Positions 329 through 16,555 of a DNA stretch of 20,393 nucleotides are shown piece by piece. The notes beneath the pieces are model-generated. The model was not told the origin of the DNA and searched no databases. It saw only the letters and a list, made by a program, of their open reading frames with translations. Position numbers and translations under genes: made by a program. Origin of the DNA: a virus; the IMG/VR virus record IMGVR_UViG_3300044627_002513, positions 1-20,393 of that record. One strand, 5' to 3'. Numbering within the stretch: the stretch's first letter is position 1; each line of letters starts with the position of its first letter.

Positions 329-537
329 ACGAGCAGGAAATAAAGTGCATTGGTTTCAAGGACATGGACCCCATGCAGATCGCGGCGCTGACGAGGGTGA
401 TGGCGCATGCCCTCAACCTTGCCGACGCCTACAGCGCGGATGCTTTCGAAGAAGTCTTCGGGGACATCGACGAGATGGTGCAGCTGTTCGGGGCTCACGG
501 GTTGACCGTGGAGGTCAACCCGAAGTTTGACTACTGA
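325..537 (+). CDS. Small acidic protein downstream of DNA polymerase (70 aa), unknown function
   Basis: A 70-residue acidic protein whose ATG overlaps the polymerase stop as ATGA. GGGGAG lies a few bases upstream of the ATG, inside the polymerase codons. The sequence is predicted to be mainly helical (AALTRVMAHALNLADAYSAD, then EEVFGDIDEMVQLFGAHG), with no membrane segment, no cysteine cluster and no signal peptide. I do not recognise a named domain. Position suggests a replication-module accessory, but this is only context. Its 3' end is unusual: the codons for the last residues form a perfect inverted repeat (498-522), and its stop overlaps the end of the convergent late operon on the other strand. 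Confidence 0.75.
   Translation: MNEQEIKCIGFKDMDPMQIAALTRVMAHALNLADAYSADAFEEVFGDIDEMVQLFGAHGLTVEVNPKFDY
498..522. terminator. Perfect 10-bp inverted repeat at the convergent gene ends; candidate bidirectional terminator
   Basis: CGGGTTGACC and GGTCAACCCG are exact inverted copies separated by GTGGA, giving a GC-rich 10-bp stem with a 5-nt loop. The element sits inside the last codons of the + strand gene, 13 bases before its stop, and 8 bases after the minus-strand late operon stop, so transcripts from either side would form the same hairpin. There is no long T-run on either side, so classic intrinsic termination is not proven. It could instead protect RNA 3' ends or cause pausing. The match could be chance within coding sequence, but its place at the only convergent junction argues otherwise. 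Confidence 0.5.
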
Positions 538-3500
538 CCCGAGATACGCCGTGCAATTTCCATATTCGCCATCTGCGATGCGAGGTCACCTCCGAGAAGG
601 CTCGGAGACAAGGAGGCCCTATTCGCCGGTGCTGTCGGCAGCTGTGGTGCCGACGGTGCTGGCATTGAATCGAAGGCGGGGGGCGGCAGTGCCGCCCCTT
701 GTGTAGACTGGCTCCCACCACCCGCGCCACCCGGCGTGATGAAGTCGGACGGGCTGGGCTCGATGAAGTCGGACGGGCTGGGTTCAATGAAGTCTTGGCC
801 GCCCTCTTCCGGAGACGGGGGTCTCAACTTTTCACGGGTCCGGGCACGAGACGCCTTGATGAAATCCCGAAAGGGGATTTGAGCCGATGGAGTTACTCGG
901 TTCAGCTTCTCCGCGCGTTCCACCATACGGATTTCGTTAAGCAGCTCTTCGGTGATGTTTCCCGGATAGAACTCCCCGCGCATGATACTCCCAACCTCGT
1001 TGGTTCCGATGTTGGCCTCCTTAGCAAGCTGCCTGCGGATGCTTTGCTCGGAAAGACCCAAGGCCCGAGCGTTCTGGATTCGGGCGTAAAGCGCGCCCTG
1101 CTCGCGGTACAGATTGTCAAGATACTGGTTCCAGCCCTGAACCATTTCCTCTGGCGTTCTGTCCGCGGCGCGAATTGTGGCAAGGGCTGCGGACTTTGCG
1201 TCTGTTCGTCGCGGGGAATACTCGCCGCCTGCGAACTGGAAGTCGCGACGGAGGTTCAACTCCATAGGTTTCAGGCCCGTAACGAGCTTTGCAAACTCAG
1301 CGGAGAGGTTCAAGTCTTTCCCCTGCCCGGTCGGCATTTCTATGACAGACCGCGTGATCGGGCCCGGGCGAATCTCTCCACCCCGAACCTCTACGAAGTC
1401 ACGAATATACCCCGGGATGTATGGTGCGCTAACGTGGTTGATGGAGTTCATGACCTGCTCAAAAAGCGGAGCTGACTGGCGATACACAATGCTCCCGTTC
1501 TTTGTTTTGCCCCCTCGGGCAAAAGGCATGACGTCTAGCACACGCTCGATGGACATTGCTTCAGACGCGAAGGGGTCAGAGTATGCCATCACACTTGCCC
1601 AGACGGAGTCGGCAATGGCTGCTGCCTCGCTCTTCCCAAGACTTCCGGCTTCATTGTAGGCGCGCAACCCCGCAACAGCCGAGTCGGTCACGAACGCATA
1701 CGGCATGACATAGCCGAGATCGACGTACTCGATCTTCCCCTGTTGGTCATTGCCAATGATGGCAAGATCATGCCCCGGCAAAAGCTTTTTGGTTTCGGCA
1801 TGCAGCGCGTCAAGCTGCTCCTGTGATGTGTTGGTTGCCATCATGGAGCCACCGACCACGGACTTCGGGATGATGGCAGCGACAGCGGCATAGGCCATGA
1901 GGCGTTGCGCGCCGTGCTCTCTAATGGCGCGCTCGAACGCCTTAGCCTGCTCTTCACCAAGACGTCCGCGAGGAACGTCGGAGACTTTATAGGACATCTC
2001 CTTTAGGGCCCTGTCGAGGATGTTGACGGAGTTCCGAATGTTCTCGGAGGCGAAGGACGTGAACGCACCAATCACAGGAAGCTTGTCGAGCTCGCGAACA
2101 AACAGGCCAACCCGGTTTTGAATTGGGAACATGTCCTTGACCGCGTCGGCCGCCATGATCTCGATGCCGGACAATCCGGGGTTTGTAAGGCTAGACGTGC
2201 GCTTGCCAACCCCCTGTGCGACCAAGTCTTCAAGCAGGTCTGGAATGGGCTGATCCAACCCGGCCTTTGCGAATGCTTCCAGAAGCTTGTTCTGCTCGGA
2301 GATAACTCCCACACCCTTGAAGAAAGAGTCGACGCCAGAGAACGTCTTTTCAAAGAACTTCAGGAAGGGGACAAGGCTTTCCCCCTTGTCGATTATGTTG
2401 CGAAGTTTACCGGAGAACCGAAGGTCCGCCCCGGCGTCCTTGTATTCTTGCAGTGCCTTGATAACGAGGTTCGTCTCAGAGGTCCCGCTTAGGGCGATGA
2501 CCCTTGCCATGCGCTCAAGGCCAGCGTCGTCCAAATCTTTAAGGTTGGCGGTAAAGACCTGATACACGTCAAAGACGTCGGTGGAACGTCCAAGGTTCGC
2601 GGTCCCGACAAGGGCGAGGGCGTTACCGATGCCCGAGCGCATCTGACTTGCGATGTTTGGAACAACGGTCATCTTCTGCGATAGGCCCTTCATCTGGGCC
2701 AAGATGGAAACAAACTCGTCCAGACCCGTAATGCCGATACGGGCAGGAGCGGAGAGAACCCGGTACGTTTCCGGTGAAACGTACAGCCCAGAGAGCTGCC
2801 CGTACTGACCGCCAAACGGATCGATTTTAGGGAGCTCGGTGTCTATAACCTCTTTGAGCATAGGGTCTGCTTCGCCGAGCCTGACATAGCCGCTCTGCTT
2901 GAGCTCGTTCGTGTACGTCTGTATCACCTTTTCCGGTTTGACCGCTCCGGAAAACTGCGGGGAGACCCCTGAGGTCGGGTCGGGGAGCGTTGTTGCAGCG
3001 CTCAGGCGCTGAGCCTCTTGGATAAAGGGGGACATATCAAAACCCGTCAGGTCTTGCCCCGGCTCAGGAACCTTGACGAAGAGCGGCTTCCCGCCCTCGC
3101 GGAGCACAGGGATGGCGTCCGCAAGGGTTGCGGTCATTCCAGAAGTGGCCATGTTCTGGTAGAAGCGAAGAGCCTCTGCCGTCTTGGACAGGTCCCCGAT
3201 GGTCTTAATGAACAACTCACGCGGGTCATCGATCTCGCCAAGAAGCTGACGAAGAACCGGGGACTTATCGATCATAGGTTCCCGAGGCGTCAAAAGAGAC
3301 CGGGTCATCTTAAAACGCGGCATCTCCATGGCAAACAAACCGCCCTTGGGGTTGACGGTTTCGGACTTGAGGCTCGAAAGTTTCTCCTTAATCGCGGCGC
3401 TCGGGTCCATGCCTGTGTTGATCTGACCGAGGCCAATCGCTTCGTTGACCTTGTACCGAGCGAGAGCTTGAACCTGCGGTGCCGAGGCGTTGCTCTGGTC

Positions 3501-4937
3501 TAGGTTTTTGGCAACCTCATCAACAGCGTTTTTGTATAGGGCGGCGTCCTTGCCCTTGAGGTCCAAGCCCTTGTAGTAGGTGATGGGGTCTTCATAAACC
3601 TTAAAGGCGCGCCGCAAAACGCCCTTCTGCTTGTCGGCATGCTCGGCCATGGTCTTCATGGCGGCTTCCAAAACCTGCCGACGCGCGCCCGGGGGAGCAA
3701 GGTCAACCTCGCGCTCGAGTGTGGTAAACAGGCGGTCCGTTTCACGCAGGGCTGCATCTTTGACGCGTTCTGCGGCGGCGTTTACTTTGGGGCCGTAGGA
3801 CGAGAGGTCCGGACCAAAGCCCGTCAGGTATCGGATAATGTCCTTATCTGCCTGCTTCACGGCTCGACGACCTTTGACGGCGCGGGCGATGGGGCCACCA
3901 ACCTCGGCCTTGACCGTGGCGGTGAACTCGTCGAATGCGGAGATGGCGGCCGAGTTGATGGCATCCTCGCGCGCAGTTACGTCCATGACCTCTTCAAAGA
4001 CACGCGGGTCAGCTCCCCTCGCGGCAGTGAAGTAGCTCTCGGCCGTTCGCCCAACGGCTTCTGCCCCGGGAATTTTGCTCAACCCTTCTTTGGCTGCCTG
4101 AAAACCAGACCGGATGCCGCGCGCAGCAGCAGACGCCGCGTCCGTGCTTCCCACGTAGCCAACGCCTTTTCCAACCCCGACGAGCGCGGTGTCAAAAGCA
4201 CCTGTGACAAGACCGCCCTCAATCCCGGAACGCAGCTTGTTTCTGATTCTCCGCAGCGCCTCTTCTCGTCCAGACAGCCCGGTGTCTTCCTCTGTCTCAA
4301 GCGGCCCGCCGAGGCTGAACGTGTCTGACAGTGTCGCGCGACCATCCGGGGTGAAGATGGTCTCAAACCCAGCCGCGGCAGCCGCGGTGGTTCCAATGAG
4401 TCCCTTCTTGGTTCCGAGGGCCGCCCTTCCAATAGACGAGGCCCCGAAGTTATCTGCCGTTCTGAGATAGCGGCTAGTGGCTGGGAGGAGGGTCTTCCCT
4501 GCGTTGACCGCCTTCGCTGCGGCGGAAGCTCTGCCAAGCCACCCCACGACCGGGACGAAACCGAGGCCGTACGAGATGACGTCCTCCGCGATCTGCCCTC
4601 CCACGGTTTGAGGTTTTACGTAGGACTTCAGGTATTCAAAGCCGTCAGTGACGGAGCGGGAAGTGCTGGTTCCAAACACCAAATCAAGGCCGGAGGACCC
4701 AAGTTCAGAAACCCCCTGAAGAAGAGACAGCGCGGCCGAAGGCACCGCTCGGCCAAACTCCTGCCCGGCGGTGATTCCGGTGTCTACCGCGCTTGCCAAA
4801 AAGGACTGGTCTTCCTCGGACCCCTGAGCAAAATCAGCCGGAGTGGGATCAATGAAGTCCGCCGGAGTGGGATCAATGAAGTCCGCCGTGGTGGGCTCGA
4901 GGAAGTCGCCCGGAGTGGGCTCGATGAGGTCTACCAC
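531..4937 (-). CDS. Large virion-associated / DNA-ejection-type protein (1468 aa) with terminal octapeptide repeats
   Basis: The last gene of the late operon and by far the largest. I chose the GTG at 4937 over the upstream ATG at 4970 because GGGGAG lies 6 nt before it and the preceding gene stops at 4940. The protein looks like the large internal virion or ejection proteins of podoviruses: long, mostly helical, Ala/Lys/Glu-rich, no catalytic motif that I can name, with hydrophobic stretches in the first ~170 residues (for example GLGFVPVVGWLGRA) and a central region with amphipathic helices. An octapeptide D-F-I-[ED]-P-[ST]-P-x is repeated four times at residues 3-34 and again at residues 1382-1402. 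Its 3' end overlaps the + strand gene by 7 bases. The role as an ejectosome or capsid-internal protein is inferred from size, position and neighbours; a transglycosylase or peptidase domain is not evident. Confidence 0.7.
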   Translation of the reverse strand: MVDLIEPTPGDFLEPTTADFIDPTPADFIDPTPADFAQGSEEDQSFLASAVDTGITAGQEFGRAVPSAALSLLQGVSELGSSGLDLVFGTSTSRSVTDGFEYLKSYVKPQTVGGQIAEDVISYGLGFVPVVGWLGRASAAAKAVNAGKTLLPATSRYLRTADNFGASSIGRAALGTKKGLIGTTAAAAAGFETIFTPDGRATLSDTFSLGGPLETEEDTGLSGREEALRRIRNKLRSGIEGGLVTGAFDTALVGVGKGVGYVGSTDAASAAARGIRSGFQAAKEGLSKIPGAEAVGRTAESYFTAARGADPRVFEEVMDVTAREDAINSAAISAFDEFTATVKAEVGGPIARAVKGRRAVKQADKDIIRYLTGFGPDLSSYGPKVNAAAERVKDAALRETDRLFTTLEREVDLAPPGARRQVLEAAMKTMAEHADKQKGVLRRAFKVYEDPITYYKGLDLKGKDAALYKNAVDEVAKNLDQSNASAPQVQALARYKVNEAIGLGQINTGMDPSAAIKEKLSSLKSETVNPKGGLFAMEMPRFKMTRSLLTPREPMIDKSPVLRQLLGEIDDPRELFIKTIGDLSKTAEALRFYQNMATSGMTATLADAIPVLREGGKPLFVKVPEPGQDLTGFDMSPFIQEAQRLSAATTLPDPTSGVSPQFSGAVKPEKVIQTYTNELKQSGYVRLGEADPMLKEVIDTELPKIDPFGGQYGQLSGLYVSPETYRVLSAPARIGITGLDEFVSILAQMKGLSQKMTVVPNIASQMRSGIGNALALVGTANLGRSTDVFDVYQVFTANLKDLDDAGLERMARVIALSGTSETNLVIKALQEYKDAGADLRFSGKLRNIIDKGESLVPFLKFFEKTFSGVDSFFKGVGVISEQNKLLEAFAKAGLDQPIPDLLEDLVAQGVGKRTSSLTNPGLSGIEIMAADAVKDMFPIQNRVGLFVRELDKLPVIGAFTSFASENIRNSVNILDRALKEMSYKVSDVPRGRLGEEQAKAFERAIREHGAQRLMAYAAVAAIIPKSVVGGSMMATNTSQEQLDALHAETKKLLPGHDLAIIGNDQQGKIEYVDLGYVMPYAFVTDSAVAGLRAYNEAGSLGKSEAAAIADSVWASVMAYSDPFASEAMSIERVLDVMPFARGGKTKNGSIVYRQSAPLFEQVMNSINHVSAPYIPGYIRDFVEVRGGEIRPGPITRSVIEMPTGQGKDLNLSAEFAKLVTGLKPMELNLRRDFQFAGGEYSPRRTDAKSAALATIRAADRTPEEMVQGWNQYLDNLYREQGALYARIQNARALGLSEQSIRRQLAKEANIGTNEVGSIMRGEFYPGNITEELLNEIRMVERAEKLNRVTPSAQIPFRDFIKASRARTREKLRPPSPEEGGQDFIEPSPSDFIEPSPSDFITPGGAGGGSQSTQGAALPPPAFDSMPAPSAPQLPTAPANRASLSPSLLGGDLASQMANMEIARRISGQ
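738..794 (-). repeat. 24-bp tandem repeats encoding C-terminal DFIEPSPS octapeptides
   Basis: On the minus strand two identical 24-nt units encode DFIEPSPS twice, followed by a partial third unit, DFITP. On the + strand GATGAAGTC recurs at 738, 762 and (as AATGAAGTC) 786, an exact 24-base period. The array lies in the last ~90 codons of the 1468-aa gene, before a Gly/Ser/Pro-rich tail. Confidence 0.9.
4836..4931 (-). repeat. 24-bp tandem repeats encoding N-terminal D-F-I-[ED]-P-T-P-x octapeptides
   Basis: Four consecutive 8-residue units follow the start of the 1468-aa protein: DLIEPTPG, DFLEPTTA, DFIDPTPA, DFIDPTPA, then a decayed unit beginning DFAQ. The third and fourth units are nearly identical in DNA, and the set closely resembles the C-terminal array about 4 kb away. 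Confidence 0.9.
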
Positions 4938-4939
4938 TG

Positions 4940-6346
4940 TTAGCTCCCCGCATAGTTCTGGGCCACCCAAGAATTGTACCGCGCTTCAAACTCTTCGCCA
5001 GTCATTGCGACGTTTGGATTTTTAGCTTTAACCATGGCCGTGTACTGCTCAAGGGTTGGCGGAGTGCCAGTTCTTTGGGCTGCCGCAGGCGGTGGTTCCT
5101 CAGACGACGAAGCAGACCCGAACAGCTTAGCGGCGTTCTCGGCCCCGTAGAGCTCTACAACCTTGTCCCGAGCAACCTGCGTAGCGTAATCGTTCAGCTC
5201 CCCACCGCCTTCCGGAACGGCAAACACCCCGGCATCAAACACAGTGGTGTACATGGTGTCGAACGTGTCGCGCATGTCCTTGATGAGCTTGCCTTCGGCC
5301 TCCGTCTCAGCTTTAGCCCCTGCTTCTCTGGCCGCCTGCTCCGCAGCACGGACCTCCAGAGCCTTGAGCTGCAAGGCCCGAGCATCGCCAGCCCGGCGCT
5401 CTTCGGTCGCTCGCGCGCCCTCCATGCCGACAAGCAACCCCTTGGCAATGTTCTCTGTGGCACGTGCGGAGGTCCCGGCCGCAATCGCCGCACCGATGAT
5501 GCCGCGGTTGAGCTGGTCAATGTTCTTTTCGTAGGCCGACGAATCGCCAGTCATTTCTTCTAGGGTCTTGGCAAGGTCGAACCGCAGGTCACCCGTGGGT
5601 TCTTCGACCGCTGTTTTCACGATCTCGTCGGCAACCTCTTCCGGCGGAGCCGTGTCGAGTTTCGCTCCAATCCGTTCCACAAACGCGTCCACGCCAATTG
5701 CATTCACCTTTGGCGGCACAACGACAGTACCAGCGGTCGCCCCGATATCGACAGGCTCAGCCGACCGGACGGTCGAAGGCCCGATGCCTATGGCACGAGC
5801 AGGGTTCGGCCGGGCTGCCGGAGCGGGAGGAGCGGCCGGGTCTTCAGAGGCCTCTGCGGAACCCATCGTCGGGGCGAGGTTGATCAGGCCGCCGAGGAAA
5901 AACCCCGGGGGCTGCGCAGGCTGCATCTGCAGCGACTGCGGCATCTGCGGCGGCATGTAGGCGGGCTCTGCAATCGCGGGCTGGATCGGCTGCTGCGGCA
6001 TCATCGACTGCGGCTGCATCATCCCCATCCCGTCGTCCATGGGTTGCTGCATCCCCATGTCCATGGGTTGCTGCGGCATCGGCTGCTGCATGCCCATCCC
6101 CATGTCCATGGGTCGCTGCGGCTGCATCATAGGCTGCTGCGGCTGCATAACAGGAGGGGCAGGCATCCCCATAGGCTGCTGCGGCATGGACATAGGCCCA
6201 AGGTCCGCGGGCCGCGGAGCCTGCATCGCCGTCATCAGGGCCTCGCGCATCAGCTCCTCGGAGCTGGACATGATGCCGCCCATCTTGCGGAGCTCGTCCC
6301 GAGCGCCGCTTTGACGGAAGAGCTTGCGGTTGTAGACACCGGACAT
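4940..6346 (-). CDS. Virion/ejection-type protein with Met-Gln-Pro-rich region (468 aa)
   Basis: Starts MSGVYNRKLFRQ, followed by GARDELRKMGGIMSSSEELM, an N-terminal pattern I associate with structural-module proteins of marine phages. The start has GGAG (GGAGCCTAATATG) overlapping the end of the upstream gene. Residues 51-147 are a low-complexity Met/Gln/Pro/Gly stretch built from units such as QQPMDMGM. Residues 148-220 are Pro/Ala-rich and probably disordered. Residues 220-300 contain a helical region with a small hydrophobic segment (GIIGAAIAAG). Residues 305-365 are a charged, coiled-coil-like helix, and the C-terminus (LEQYTAMVKAKNP to YNSWVAQNY) is compact. It lies between two other virion-type genes, so a capsid-internal or tail/ejection role is likely. 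No enzyme motif is visible. Confidence 0.72.
   Translation of the reverse strand: MSGVYNRKLFRQSGARDELRKMGGIMSSSEELMREALMTAMQAPRPADLGPMSMPQQPMGMPAPPVMQPQQPMMQPQRPMDMGMGMQQPMPQQPMDMGMQQPMDDGMGMMQPQSMMPQQPIQPAIAEPAYMPPQMPQSLQMQPAQPPGFFLGGLINLAPTMGSAEASEDPAAPPAPAARPNPARAIGIGPSTVRSAEPVDIGATAGTVVVPPKVNAIGVDAFVERIGAKLDTAPPEEVADEIVKTAVEEPTGDLRFDLAKTLEEMTGDSSAYEKNIDQLNRGIIGAAIAAGTSARATENIAKGLLVGMEGARATEERRAGDARALQLKALEVRAAEQAAREAGAKAETEAEGKLIKDMRDTFDTMYTTVFDAGVFAVPEGGGELNDYATQVARDKVVELYGAENAAKLFGSASSSEEPPPAAAQRTGTPPTLEQYTAMVKAKNPNVAMTGEEFEARYNSWVAQNYAGS
4944..4949 (-). promoter_or_regulatory. Shine-Dalgarno GGGGAG that sets the GTG start at 4937
   Basis: On the minus strand GGGGAG is followed by CTAACA and then GTG, a 6-nt spacing. 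It lies in the last codons of the preceding 468-aa gene, which stops at 4940. The more upstream ATG at 4970 has no comparable site. Confidence 0.7.
5906..6196 (-). repeat. Met-Gln-Pro low-complexity coding repeat
   Basis: About 97 codons of the 468-aa gene use mostly ATG, CAG and CCG/CCC. On the + strand this gives recurring blocks such as CCCATGTCCATGGG and GGCTGCTGCGGCTGCAT. The units are irregular (QQPM, MDMGM, MQPQ), so this is a decayed repeat rather than a strict tandem array. The encoded segment is expected to be unfolded and rich in oxidisable Met. Confidence 0.85.
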
Positions 6347-6347
6347 A

Positions 6348-7424
6348 TTAGGCTCCGCTTGGGTTCATGAGGCTGCCAAGAATGCCTTGGCCGCCGCCGT
6401 ACTTGTTTCCGTATGCACCGAGCGCCATCCCTGTCCCGAGGATCGAGGACACCGGGCTGGGGGTCGGGGCGCTGGTGACGGCCAGAGTTGACGCCGACGA
6501 CGGGACTCCGCGGAAAATGTCGGACATGAAGGAGAAGCGCTGGAACGGTTCGTAGGCCGACTCGATAGCCCCGGCCCGCTGCACGTCGTACTCCGACTGG
6601 CGCTGCCCCTGCTCGAGCGCGCCCATGTTGAACAGGGCGTTGACGTCCCGCTGACCGAGGCCCTGAGCGGCTTCGCCCAGAGCAGCCTGAGCCGTGCCCA
6701 GACCTTGGAAGATCGAGGCGGCGTTTTGACCACGCTGCATCTGGTTCTCGAACACGCTCTGAGCCTGCTGCTGCGCGCCCGTGTAGGCGGCCGAGCGCAG
6801 TTGCGCACCGGTGCGGGCCATCTGGTCGGCCGTGTTGCGCTGCAGCTCCTGCTCGGCGACAGCCTGACGGGAGCCACCAAAGGCTCCGGACTGTACTGCC
6901 TGCGCCCCGATGCGGTCGCGCTCGATGTCGCCCTGACGTGCAATGTCCCGCTCGGCTGAGCCGATAACCTGCTCGACGAAGGGGTCGTAGAAGGACCTGT
7001 AGGACTGCGGGTCGTAGGCCCCCGTTGTCCCGCCCAGTGCGGCAACGCCCTGCCCCATAGTCTGCGTCCCTGCCTGCAGGTATGGGGCGTAGGCACCGAT
7101 ACCCTCAGTGGCCATCCTTGCCGCGCGTTCCTGAGACGGCGTGAACGGCATGATCTCGGGCCGAGGAACGCCGCCCTCGACCTTCTGGATCGGCTGGCCG
7201 CGAATGTCGAGGCGTGGGCTGCCGTCGGCGTTGAGCTCGTAGAGCGGGTTCCCCTGCGCGTCCGTAACGGGCCTGCCGTAAAGAGGCGAGACCGCGGCGA
7301 TGCCTGACGGCTGCCCGGTTGCTGGGTCCACGTTGTAGATGTTGGCAAGAAGGTCTTTTAGAAACCGTTCCTGATACTCAGGAAGAAGAGAGATAGTCTC
7401 TTGGCGGACTGTTTGATCGGCCAT
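6348..7424 (-). CDS. Virion structural protein, helical (358 aa)
   Basis: Its ATG overlaps the stop of the previous gene as TAATG, with GGAGGG a few bases upstream. Residues 1-30 are helical (QETISLLPEYQERFLKDLL). Residues 31-95 are Pro/Gly-rich with D-x-x-G-N-P-L-Y style text. Residues 150-290 form a long Gln/Ala/Arg-rich helical region containing GAFGGSRQAVAEQEL, and residues 291-310 read YEPFQRFSFMSDIFRGVPSS. The C-terminus is Gly-rich. This layout resembles phage proteins that accompany the large ejection proteins in podovirus-like aquatic phages, but I cannot name a family. The neighbours on both sides are likewise virion-type. There is no transmembrane segment, signal peptide or catalytic motif. 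Confidence 0.72.
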   Translation of the reverse strand: MADQTVRQETISLLPEYQERFLKDLLANIYNVDPATGQPSGIAAVSPLYGRPVTDAQGNPLYELNADGSPRLDIRGQPIQKVEGGVPRPEIMPFTPSQERAARMATEGIGAYAPYLQAGTQTMGQGVAALGGTTGAYDPQSYRSFYDPFVEQVIGSAERDIARQGDIERDRIGAQAVQSGAFGGSRQAVAEQELQRNTADQMARTGAQLRSAAYTGAQQQAQSVFENQMQRGQNAASIFQGLGTAQAALGEAAQGLGQRDVNALFNMGALEQGQRQSEYDVQRAGAIESAYEPFQRFSFMSDIFRGVPSSASTLAVTSAPTPSPVSSILGTGMALGAYGNKYGGGQGILGSLMNPSGA

Positions 7425-8167
7425 TATGCCCTCCGCTCAAAGCGCTGCATCATGCGGTACATTTCCGCTGCGCCCTTGGCGCGGTCGCCATTGCCTGCAC
7501 CACGAACCGCGCGGTTCGTCATGACAAACTCCCCGTCCGAGAGCCGAGCTTCTTGGACAGGCTTGCCGTTCTGGTAGATGCGGGAGGGGATCGAGTCGCT
7601 GGTCCCGGTTCCCGGACCTTGGACCATGCCGCCCTTGGCGTAGTTGGAGCCGTAGCGGTAGTCAAAGGTCGGGGTCCCACGGTAGTCTGGAAGACGTTCA
7701 CCCGTCTCAAGTTGGCGCTGCTGCTCGGGGGTTGTGATGGTCACGTTCTTGGGCTCGGTCGCCTTCAGGATCGCGGCAAGCATCAGAGGATTGTCAAAGG
7801 CCTGAAGCAGGCCGCCAAGGCCCTGAGACTTCTTGGCCCCGGTGGCCGCAGCTGCGGCCGAGGGCGTCCCACCGAGGCCCGGCAGCAGGCCGCCCAGAAG
7901 GTTCCCGCCACCTTTCCCGCCACCGCTGAAGGCGTCGAACACAGCAGAACCAGCCGCCTGCGAGGAGCCACCTCCGCCAAGAAGGTCGGCCACGATGCCA
8001 GCCTTCCCGCCGAGACCGCCCGTGACGAGCGATCCGATGCCCGTCTTGAAGGCGTCCGAGATGCTGCCACCGCCGAACAGTGTGCCGAGACCACCGCCGA
8101 GCGCTGCGCCTGCCGGGCCGCCAGCCACAAGGCCAACAAGACTTCCGATTGTAGAGAGAAGGCTCAT
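7424..8167 (-). CDS. Gly-rich virion protein with tape-measure-like C-terminal module (247 aa)
   Basis: The N-terminal ~120 residues are Gly/Ala/Leu-rich with hydrophobic runs (LVGLVAGGPAGAALGGG), which suggest membrane-active or flexible helices. The C-terminal module, residues 177-247, is recognisable: KGGMVQGPGTGTSDSIPSR, then ARLSDGEFVMTNRAVRGAGN and GAAEMYRMMQRFE. This block is found at the ends of tape-measure and other virion proteins. The ATG overlaps the stop of the 98-aa gene (ATGA), and the Shine-Dalgarno-like GGTGG lies inside the last codons of that gene. At 247 aa it is far too short for a siphovirus tape measure, so a short-tail or ejection role is more likely. Function is inferred. 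Confidence 0.72.
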   Translation of the reverse strand: MSLLSTIGSLVGLVAGGPAGAALGGGLGTLFGGGSISDAFKTGIGSLVTGGLGGKAGIVADLLGGGGSSQAAGSAVFDAFSGGGKGGGNLLGGLLPGLGGTPSAAAAATGAKKSQGLGGLLQAFDNPLMLAAILKATEPKNVTITTPEQQRQLETGERLPDYRGTPTFDYRYGSNYAKGGMVQGPGTGTSDSIPSRIYQNGKPVQEARLSDGEFVMTNRAVRGAGNGDRAKGAAEMYRMMQRFERRA

Positions 8168-15718: not shown

Positions 15719-16555
15719 TCACGCGGCGACTGGGGTCCAGACCGTAGGTGGCGCTGGCTCAAGGGTTGTCCATGAATTTATAACACCCGGATCGACGTCC
15801 GTCCATGACGAACCCGGAGAAGGCAAGACGTCAGACCAAGATGTAGGTGGCGCTGGATTCAGTGGGTCCCACGCGGTTCCGGGACCGGGGACAATCTGGC
15901 TCCAGACAAGAACGACGCCGACAGCCCCGGTGGCTGAGACACCAGTGACCTGAACGTCAGCGCCAGCCTCGGGGACCACAGTGCCCACGGCCACGGTGGC
16001 TGAGACCCCAGTGAGCTCTGCAATCGTCGGGATGATGATCACCACGTCGCCTACAGCGCCCGAGGCCTCAACGCCAGTGACTGCCACATCAGAGCCAGCC
16101 TGAGCGACGACATCACCCACAACAGCAGATGCAGAGACGCCAGTTGGCAAAATGAGGGCAGAGCCTGAGACGAAAACGTCGCCTGTCTCTCCGGTGGCTG
16201 ATACCCCCGTCGGCTCGACAATCGCCCCTGCGGCCACTGTGACAGAACCTACAGCGCCAGATGCCTCAACGCCCGTGACCGGTACGTCAGCCCCAGCCCG
16301 CGCAATGACAGTTCCAACTGCCCCAGACGCAGAGACCCCGGTAGGTAGAACAAGGGCGGAGCCCGTGGCAACAACTGTGGCGACGTCCCCGGTGGCTGAT
16401 ACACCTGTGGGCTGGACAAGGGCGGTGCCAGTGACGGTGACAGTGCCAATTGCGCCAGTGGCAGACACGCCAGTGACGACGACGGGGATTGCCTCACCCC
16501 ACGCCCCAGAGGACCACGTACCACGGCCCCAGCCTGTAAGGGTCGTGTTGGCCAT
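15719..16555 (-). CDS. Two-tier repeat protein beside the fibre (278 aa)
   Basis: The N-terminus TGWGRGTWSSGAWGEAIPV (residues 7-25) is a Trp/Gly-rich motif also present in the gp10-like protein. Residues 28-223 are nine copies of a 22-residue unit, consensus TGVSA[ST]GAVGTV-x9-P, probably a string of short beta hairpins. Residues 218-278 carry six Trp spaced exactly 11 residues apart in units of the type W-[ST]-D-V-x-P-x-P-x-x-S. There is no signal peptide and no catalytic motif. AAGGGG precedes the ATG. The gene lies between the 147-aa structural-type gene and the fibre gene, so a fibre-linked or decorative virion role is likely, but it is inferred only from context and repeats. Confidence 0.75.
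   Translation of the reverse strand: MANTTLTGWGRGTWSSGAWGEAIPVVVTGVSATGAIGTVTVTGTALVQPTGVSATGDVATVVATGSALVLPTGVSASGAVGTVIARAGADVPVTGVEASGAVGSVTVAAGAIVEPTGVSATGETGDVFVSGSALILPTGVSASAVVGDVVAQAGSDVAVTGVEASGAVGDVVIIIPTIAELTGVSATVAVGTVVPEAGADVQVTGVSATGAVGVVLVWSQIVPGPGTAWDPLNPAPPTSWSDVLPSPGSSWTDVDPGVINSWTTLEPAPPTVWTPVAA
15722..15904 (-). repeat. 33-bp tandem repeat encoding Trp every 11 residues
   Basis: Residues 218, 229, 240, 251, 262 and 273 of the 278-aa protein are all Trp, in units such as WSDVLPSPGSS, WTDVDPGVINS and WTTLEPAPPTV. The array runs to the C-terminus and overlaps the last 22-residue unit by a few residues. Confidence 0.9.
15887..16474 (-). repeat. 66-bp tandem repeat, nine copies of a 22-residue unit
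   Basis: Units start at residues 28, 50, 72, 94, 116, 138, 160, 182 and 204, each beginning TGV[SE]A. Several DNA units remain similar (for example GTGGCTGA[GT]AC blocks on the + strand), with two alternating flavours ending in P or V. Confidence 0.92.

Follow-up and report, generated by a model that had tools for sequence, protein, structure and literature searches.

The window, a 20,393-nucleotide stretch of IMG/VR virus record IMGVR_UViG_3300044627_002513, carries on its minus strand the gene of a giant protein, here called B, with a GTG start at 4937 and a stop at 531 (Table 1). Tandem octapeptides lie at both of its ends. The N-terminal array reads DLIEPTPG-DFLEPTTA-DFIDPTPA-DFIDPTPA-DF, its first unit having DLIEP rather than DFIEP, and the C-terminal array reads DFIEPSPS-DFIEPSPS-DFITP. 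Tandem Repeats Finder delimits 24-bp units at 4837-4931 (4.0 copies) and at 738-794 (2.4 copies). The protein begins with VVDLIEPTPGDFLEPTTADFIDPTPADFIDPTPADF, and DFIEPSPSDFIEPSPSDFITP appears about 1345 residues further on, ahead of a conserved tail; no copy of the motif was found in the interior between the two ends. Aligned with each other, the two end segments of B score 88, compared with a mean of 26 against the C-ends of other phages, and none of 200 shuffles scores as high. The DF[IL][ED]P-type octapeptides that the preliminary description reported at both ends are therefore real and beyond chance. The conserved core of B is predicted, with moderate model confidence, to be helical for the most part. 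The ends lie in Pro/Ala-rich linkers that are probably disordered.

Table 1. Features of the window around the giant protein B (positions are those of the window)
Feature	Position	Strand	Remark
Giant protein B, 1468 aa, GTG start	531..4937	minus	probable ejection protein, putative docking motifs at both ends
Conserved C-terminal tail of B past the array, PxLLGxxxxxQxxNxEIxxR	534..680	minus	96% identity in a homologue 66% identical overall
C-terminal motif array of B (putative docking motifs), DFIEPSPS x2 + DFITP	732..794	minus	
N-terminal motif array of B (putative docking motifs), D-[LF]-[IL]-[ED]-P-[ST]-[PT]-x, 4 units + DF	4830..4931	minus	
Protein A, 468 aa, immediately upstream of B	4940..6346	minus	N-terminal NRKLFR...GGIMSS, C-terminal mini-domain
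C-terminal mini-domain of A (GTPPTLEQYTAMVKAKNPNVAMTGEEFEARYNSWVAQNYAGS)	4943..5068	minus	putative reader of DF[IFL][ED]P
Neighbouring probable DNA ejection protein (PHROG 4287)	6348..7424	minus	E 2e-13, two genes upstream of B

A search of viral contigs with the core peptide returned 80 loci, which together with loci found earlier gave 51 distinct full-length homologues of B, most of them 31-66% identical. In the homologue that is 66% identical the octapeptides are absent, and FDDLIP is found at the start and FDDLLP at the equivalent place near the end. The motif text is replaced wholesale across the family, in which we distinguished FDDLxP, FDDVP, NPYLNL, LPxGFxLDP, VFDPNxPF, VFDPNLPST, LFGEP, NPFLSLR, LPEPxGP, PPPGFRP, LLPEGATI, EDFIPPGA, ADFFDPF, GVFDDLE and the DF[IL][ED]P of the window, and the N and C ends are still alike in most array-bearing proteins. 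Based on 28 clusters (80% core identity), the score between the two ends of the same protein is 54.0, compared with 28.4 ± 1.9 when C-ends are permuted (0 of 10,000 permutations). Considering all contigs, matched ends (z ≥ 5) occur in 28 of 48 giants versus 12 of 512 other ORFs, and these 12 look repetitive throughout.

On a tree of the core, 20 changes are needed to place the 17 motif labels, and in eight neighbouring pairs the close relatives carry different motifs. Own-end scores are about 2-4-fold above crossed scores in seven of these eight sister pairs, and pairs with the same motif, used as a control, show no excess. The exception is the pair L025/L029, which has both motifs at the C-end: the C-ends carry ELFGEP and NPF[LM]ELR and the N-ends just one of the two. 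Such C-ends may have arisen partway through an evolutionary switch of motif. Where the cores are 98% identical (L026 and L028), replacement is confined to short segments at the two ends; the borders of swapped segments are sharp. Two loci found later (L227 and L229) carry IDLxALKxxAP, a type not met before, and here too it stands at both ends. In the alignment of homologues that the preliminary description had called for, the text of both ends varies together.

The same description held that homologues lacking one or both arrays would argue for chance expansion. Such homologues form a sub-group, as 12 of the 51 have no C-terminal copy of the motif and most of these have two N-terminal repeats of about 30 aa instead, but this leaves the matched ends of the rest unexplained. 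The repeats of this alternative N-terminal module, FxELxxxAxxAYxxGDxxxAxxLKxxAL, have no C-terminal copy (giants of L044, L045, L040, L075, L069, L080, L085, L064, L077 and L078). Arrays are lacking altogether in some distant relatives. No relative turned up in a scan of GTDB, and a tail-only search of viral contigs recovered close relatives for the most part.

The preliminary description had also raised gene conversion between the two arrays, and the 24-bp units of the window gene are indeed similar at both ends. Over the family, residues that agree between the N and C ends have identical codons in 113 of 296 cases (38.2%), and 108.8 (36.8%) are expected from codon usage. The same test picks up memory between tandem copies within one end, where codons agree in 91 of 158 cases in the N end (59.8 expected) and in 109 of 195 in the C end (64.4 expected). 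Because codon agreement between ends is no better than codon usage predicts and agreement within ends is higher, we conclude from the codons that the arrays expand by local duplication and that the match between ends is held through selection on the protein. On these counts it is extremely improbable that the two arrays of B match through gene conversion or recent duplication.

We asked which protein could read the motifs. In other ORFs of the checked loci and contigs there were no matches to the motif other than chance-like single ones. Motif labels were fixed before the upstream tails were looked at, a tail being taken as the last 75 residues encoded by the gene that directly precedes that of the giant. 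Representatives with the same motif have a tail similarity of 0.489, compared with 0.124 ± 0.030 under permutation (0 of 20,000). When the comparison is limited to relatives whose cores are <65% identical, the motif is correctly predicted by the nearest tail in 16 of 16 cases and by the nearest core in 9 of 16. Tail similarity is 0.09-0.21 in close pairs with different motifs, and 0.39 in the pair with the near-synonymous motifs FDDVP and FDDLxP. Giants that are 90-94% identical and differ in motif are preceded by unrelated mini-domains, whereas distant giants with the same motif are preceded by related ones. After removal of core identity, the partial correlation with the tail is 0.78 for the N-array and 0.38 for the C-array, which is about 4 kb from the mini-domain of A (each 0 of 5000). 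Comparisons of whole neighbouring genes diluted this signal because it is confined to the roughly 40 residues that end the upstream protein.

Likeness is graded. The mini-domain of the window's A (about 40 aa) is of the same type as that of locus G004, where the giant carries ADFFDPF, so that DF[IL][ED]P and DFFDP go with related tails; LPxGFxLDP, PPPGFRP and LLPEGATI are all paired with [DT]GxxW tails. The mini-domains were found nowhere except at the end of the gene that directly precedes the giant's, in one case (G010) as a short separate ORF at that place. None of nine examples had a Pfam match above the cut-off. The FDDLxP type is predicted to form a helix-turn-helix or two-helix unit, with a mean pLDDT of 77 for a model of 46 residues and values of about 82-90 in its helical part. 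Elsewhere, protein A has Met/Gln/Pro-rich repeats, and its N terminus, NRKLFR..GGIMSS, is similar to the way in which comparable genes of HTVC027P, DSL-LC04 and 023Pt_psg01 start (MFRxGG..G[IV]M-like).

A search with the FDDLxP-type mini-domain gave a weak match (E ~1) in the cultured Rhizobium phage RHph_N2, exactly at the C terminus of EVC05_013; the protein that follows it, EVC05_014, starts with MAGLSFDDLIPEQPSGKKSSLTFDDLIA. BLASTP detected no significant similarity of EVC05_013 and EVC05_014 to A and B of the window. Searching with the end of EVC05_013 retrieved 80 loci of this other family, dereplicated to 51 loci with a next gene. A FDDLxP-like start of the next protein accompanies the helical FDDLxP-type tail in 9 of 9 loci and occurs in 0 of 42 loci without that tail (Fisher p = 3e-10), the patterns for tail and motif having been widened after the loci were viewed (8 loci when the FDDIM variant is left out). 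At L311 the tail is present and the motif absent. Across the other family as a whole, the tail and the next N terminus covary (partial r 0.51, 0 of 3000). Further pairs of tail and next start were picked out post hoc, namely GGDPAxxxxW with PWxxY, YVSPDG with FDLxxAKP, ANPNDPR with FDPDxYL, and LPSGxxY with WxxDPV. The next genes that were complete and were checked had no C-terminal copy of the motif, and motifs at both ends were observed in the window's family only.

Two arrangements in the other family are possible pairs of reversed polarity. At L303 a motif-like tail, LPPLPPGFKVIK (PPGF), precedes an N-terminal domain with AFDGKSWSPL (DGxxW), and at L304, L312 and L315 the motif-like tail VVNFNDLP lies upstream of the N-terminal domain PDGTLVKDVPEGTTKAQL. 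A suggestive, looser pair is present in Pseudomonas phage PA8 (L240), where an LPKGTQYM-type tail (4572-4661) is followed by a giant (4677 on) starting WGENDKIV...FGANDEVV. Among the isolate phages matched by mini-domain searches, HMSP1-Susan, HTVC142P and WF5505 did not show the pair of tail and motif, nor did Eistla, which was judged by annotation only. Isolate phages searched with the motif text alone gave matches at chance level.

The position of A and B in the virion gene cluster, beside a homologue of a DNA ejection protein (PHROG 4287), is that expected of ejection proteins. The gene at the comparable position in DSL-LC04 is annotated 'DNA transfer protein', and the closest predicted folds of the B core are phage 'large polyvalent protein' types. 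From gene order and these weak similarities, A and B are probable ejection proteins. Scans of B against Pfam and PHROG gave nothing usable, including no Pfam large-polyvalent domain at the cut-off, and neither profile nor fold comparison matched B to a solved ejection protein or any other PDB entry at E ≤ 0.001. The PHROG 4287 neighbour was also considered as the specificity partner and rejected, since two phages that differ in motif have it at 99.4% identity.

Our preferred reading, to which we give a probability of roughly 0.78, is that the arrays of B are multivalent docking motifs recognised by the mini-domain at the end of A. Motif and domain types covary across phages, as is expected of pairs of docking domain and short motif. 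Related phages exchange the tag jointly with its putative reader, and the pairs would make up a lock-and-key code by which the DNA-delivery machinery is assembled. A and B would bind each other directly through the terminal mini-domain, and B, with motifs at both ends, would gather copies of A or be held by them at both ends. Such docking may load or order A and B in the virion, or build a conduit for injection. The many mutually exclusive pair types could then reflect specific pairing that stops mixing with proteins of related co-infecting phages. The suggestion that both ends do the same job by binding the same partner gains strong support from these comparisons of sequences, as the text of both ends changes together and a candidate partner is encoded next door.

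Other readings were weighed against this one. The arrays might be a packaging or assembly signal bound, like the tail of A, by a third protein such as the portal, the scaffold, the capsid or a host factor. Such a reader would suit the place of A and B in the virion gene cluster; portal and capsid genes were present on few contigs of the sample. It leaves unexplained why, in two unrelated families, the type of A's mini-domain goes with that of the motif, and a single host-specific partner is difficult to reconcile with FDDLxP in phages of 47-62% GC; we regard it as unlikely. Linkage raises a different concern, as the tail of A and the N-array of B adjoin in the DNA, could travel as one piece, and have sharply bordered swapped segments, so that they might be exchanged together with functional pairing absent. 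Within the window's family only the distant C-array, for which the correlation is weaker, counters pure linkage. The same pair of tail and motif appears again in unrelated proteins, however, and the possible pairs of reversed polarity described above also speak against it, which makes linkage quite improbable as the whole explanation.

If the motif at one end of a B molecule bound the opposite end of a second B molecule, the matching text of the two ends would be accounted for. The covarying tail of A would not, such linking is not needed, and the second family has the pairing with no C-terminal copy in those complete next genes that were checked, so that end-to-end linking is very improbable. 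Chance expansion of low-complexity text might be expected in Pro/Ala-rich, probably disordered linkers such as the ends of B. It is contradicted by the shuffled and crossed controls and by the new motif type of L227 and L229, matched at both ends, and its probability is negligible.

Beyond the docking of A and B, we tentatively suggest, with somewhat less than even confidence, that short-tailed and related phages widely use a diversified code by which the ends of successive ejection proteins dock. It would comprise more than 12 mutually exclusive pair types of motif and mini-domain, exchanged among unrelated proteins and sometimes of reversed polarity, and would serve as self-recognition that separates the injection machinery of co-infecting relatives. 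We found no description of a docking code of this kind in phages among the open-access papers that were searched. The docking-domain types of synthetases work as interchangeable modules, and in some of them a small domain reads a short linear motif. In polyketide and nonribosomal peptide synthetases, as reviewed in PMC9113145, short regions at protein ends set the pairing of subunits. The resemblance is functional, in that short end-located regions determine the partner. The phage pairs differ in belonging to virion genes rather than enzymes, in having no detected sequence relation (by Pfam, the nine mini-domains fall into no described docking-domain family) and, in the window's family, in having the motif at both ends of one protein, usually in tandem.

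How the proteins that carry phage DNA across the cell envelope are recruited and ordered is poorly understood, and the fast divergence of these proteins makes it hard to predict. With the ejection (pilot) proteins T7 gp14/15/16 and P22 gp7/16/20, A and B share a place beside a homologue of a DNA ejection protein, a giant protein predicted to be helical, and mosaic evolution, as far as the relevant parts of PMC8954989 and PMC10883804 describe them; unlike them, B has no significant match to a solved structure. Those parts describe no code of motif and mini-domain. The P22 proteins are highly variable and mosaic (PMC10883804), and a swappable docking code would help to account for this. Large polyvalent protein-associated phage proteins have the nearest predicted folds to the B core, although B is without their Pfam domain. 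If the code is real, a readable tag and its reader on neighbouring genes would make it possible to assign partners by sequence alone, would account for some of the mosaic exchange among ejection proteins, and would provide many small pairs of peptide and domain for bench tests of specificity.

Two other features of the window were recorded, both on the minus strand. The protein encoded at 7427-8167 has a C-terminal module, GPGTGTSDSIPSRIYQ...DGEFVMTNRAVRGAGNGD, with low-score likeness to the ends of tape-measure and endolysin PHROGs. A 278-aa protein at 15722-16555 consists of head-to-tail repeats of the form PTGVSATGAVGTVTV, and its family is present in 16 of the related contigs.
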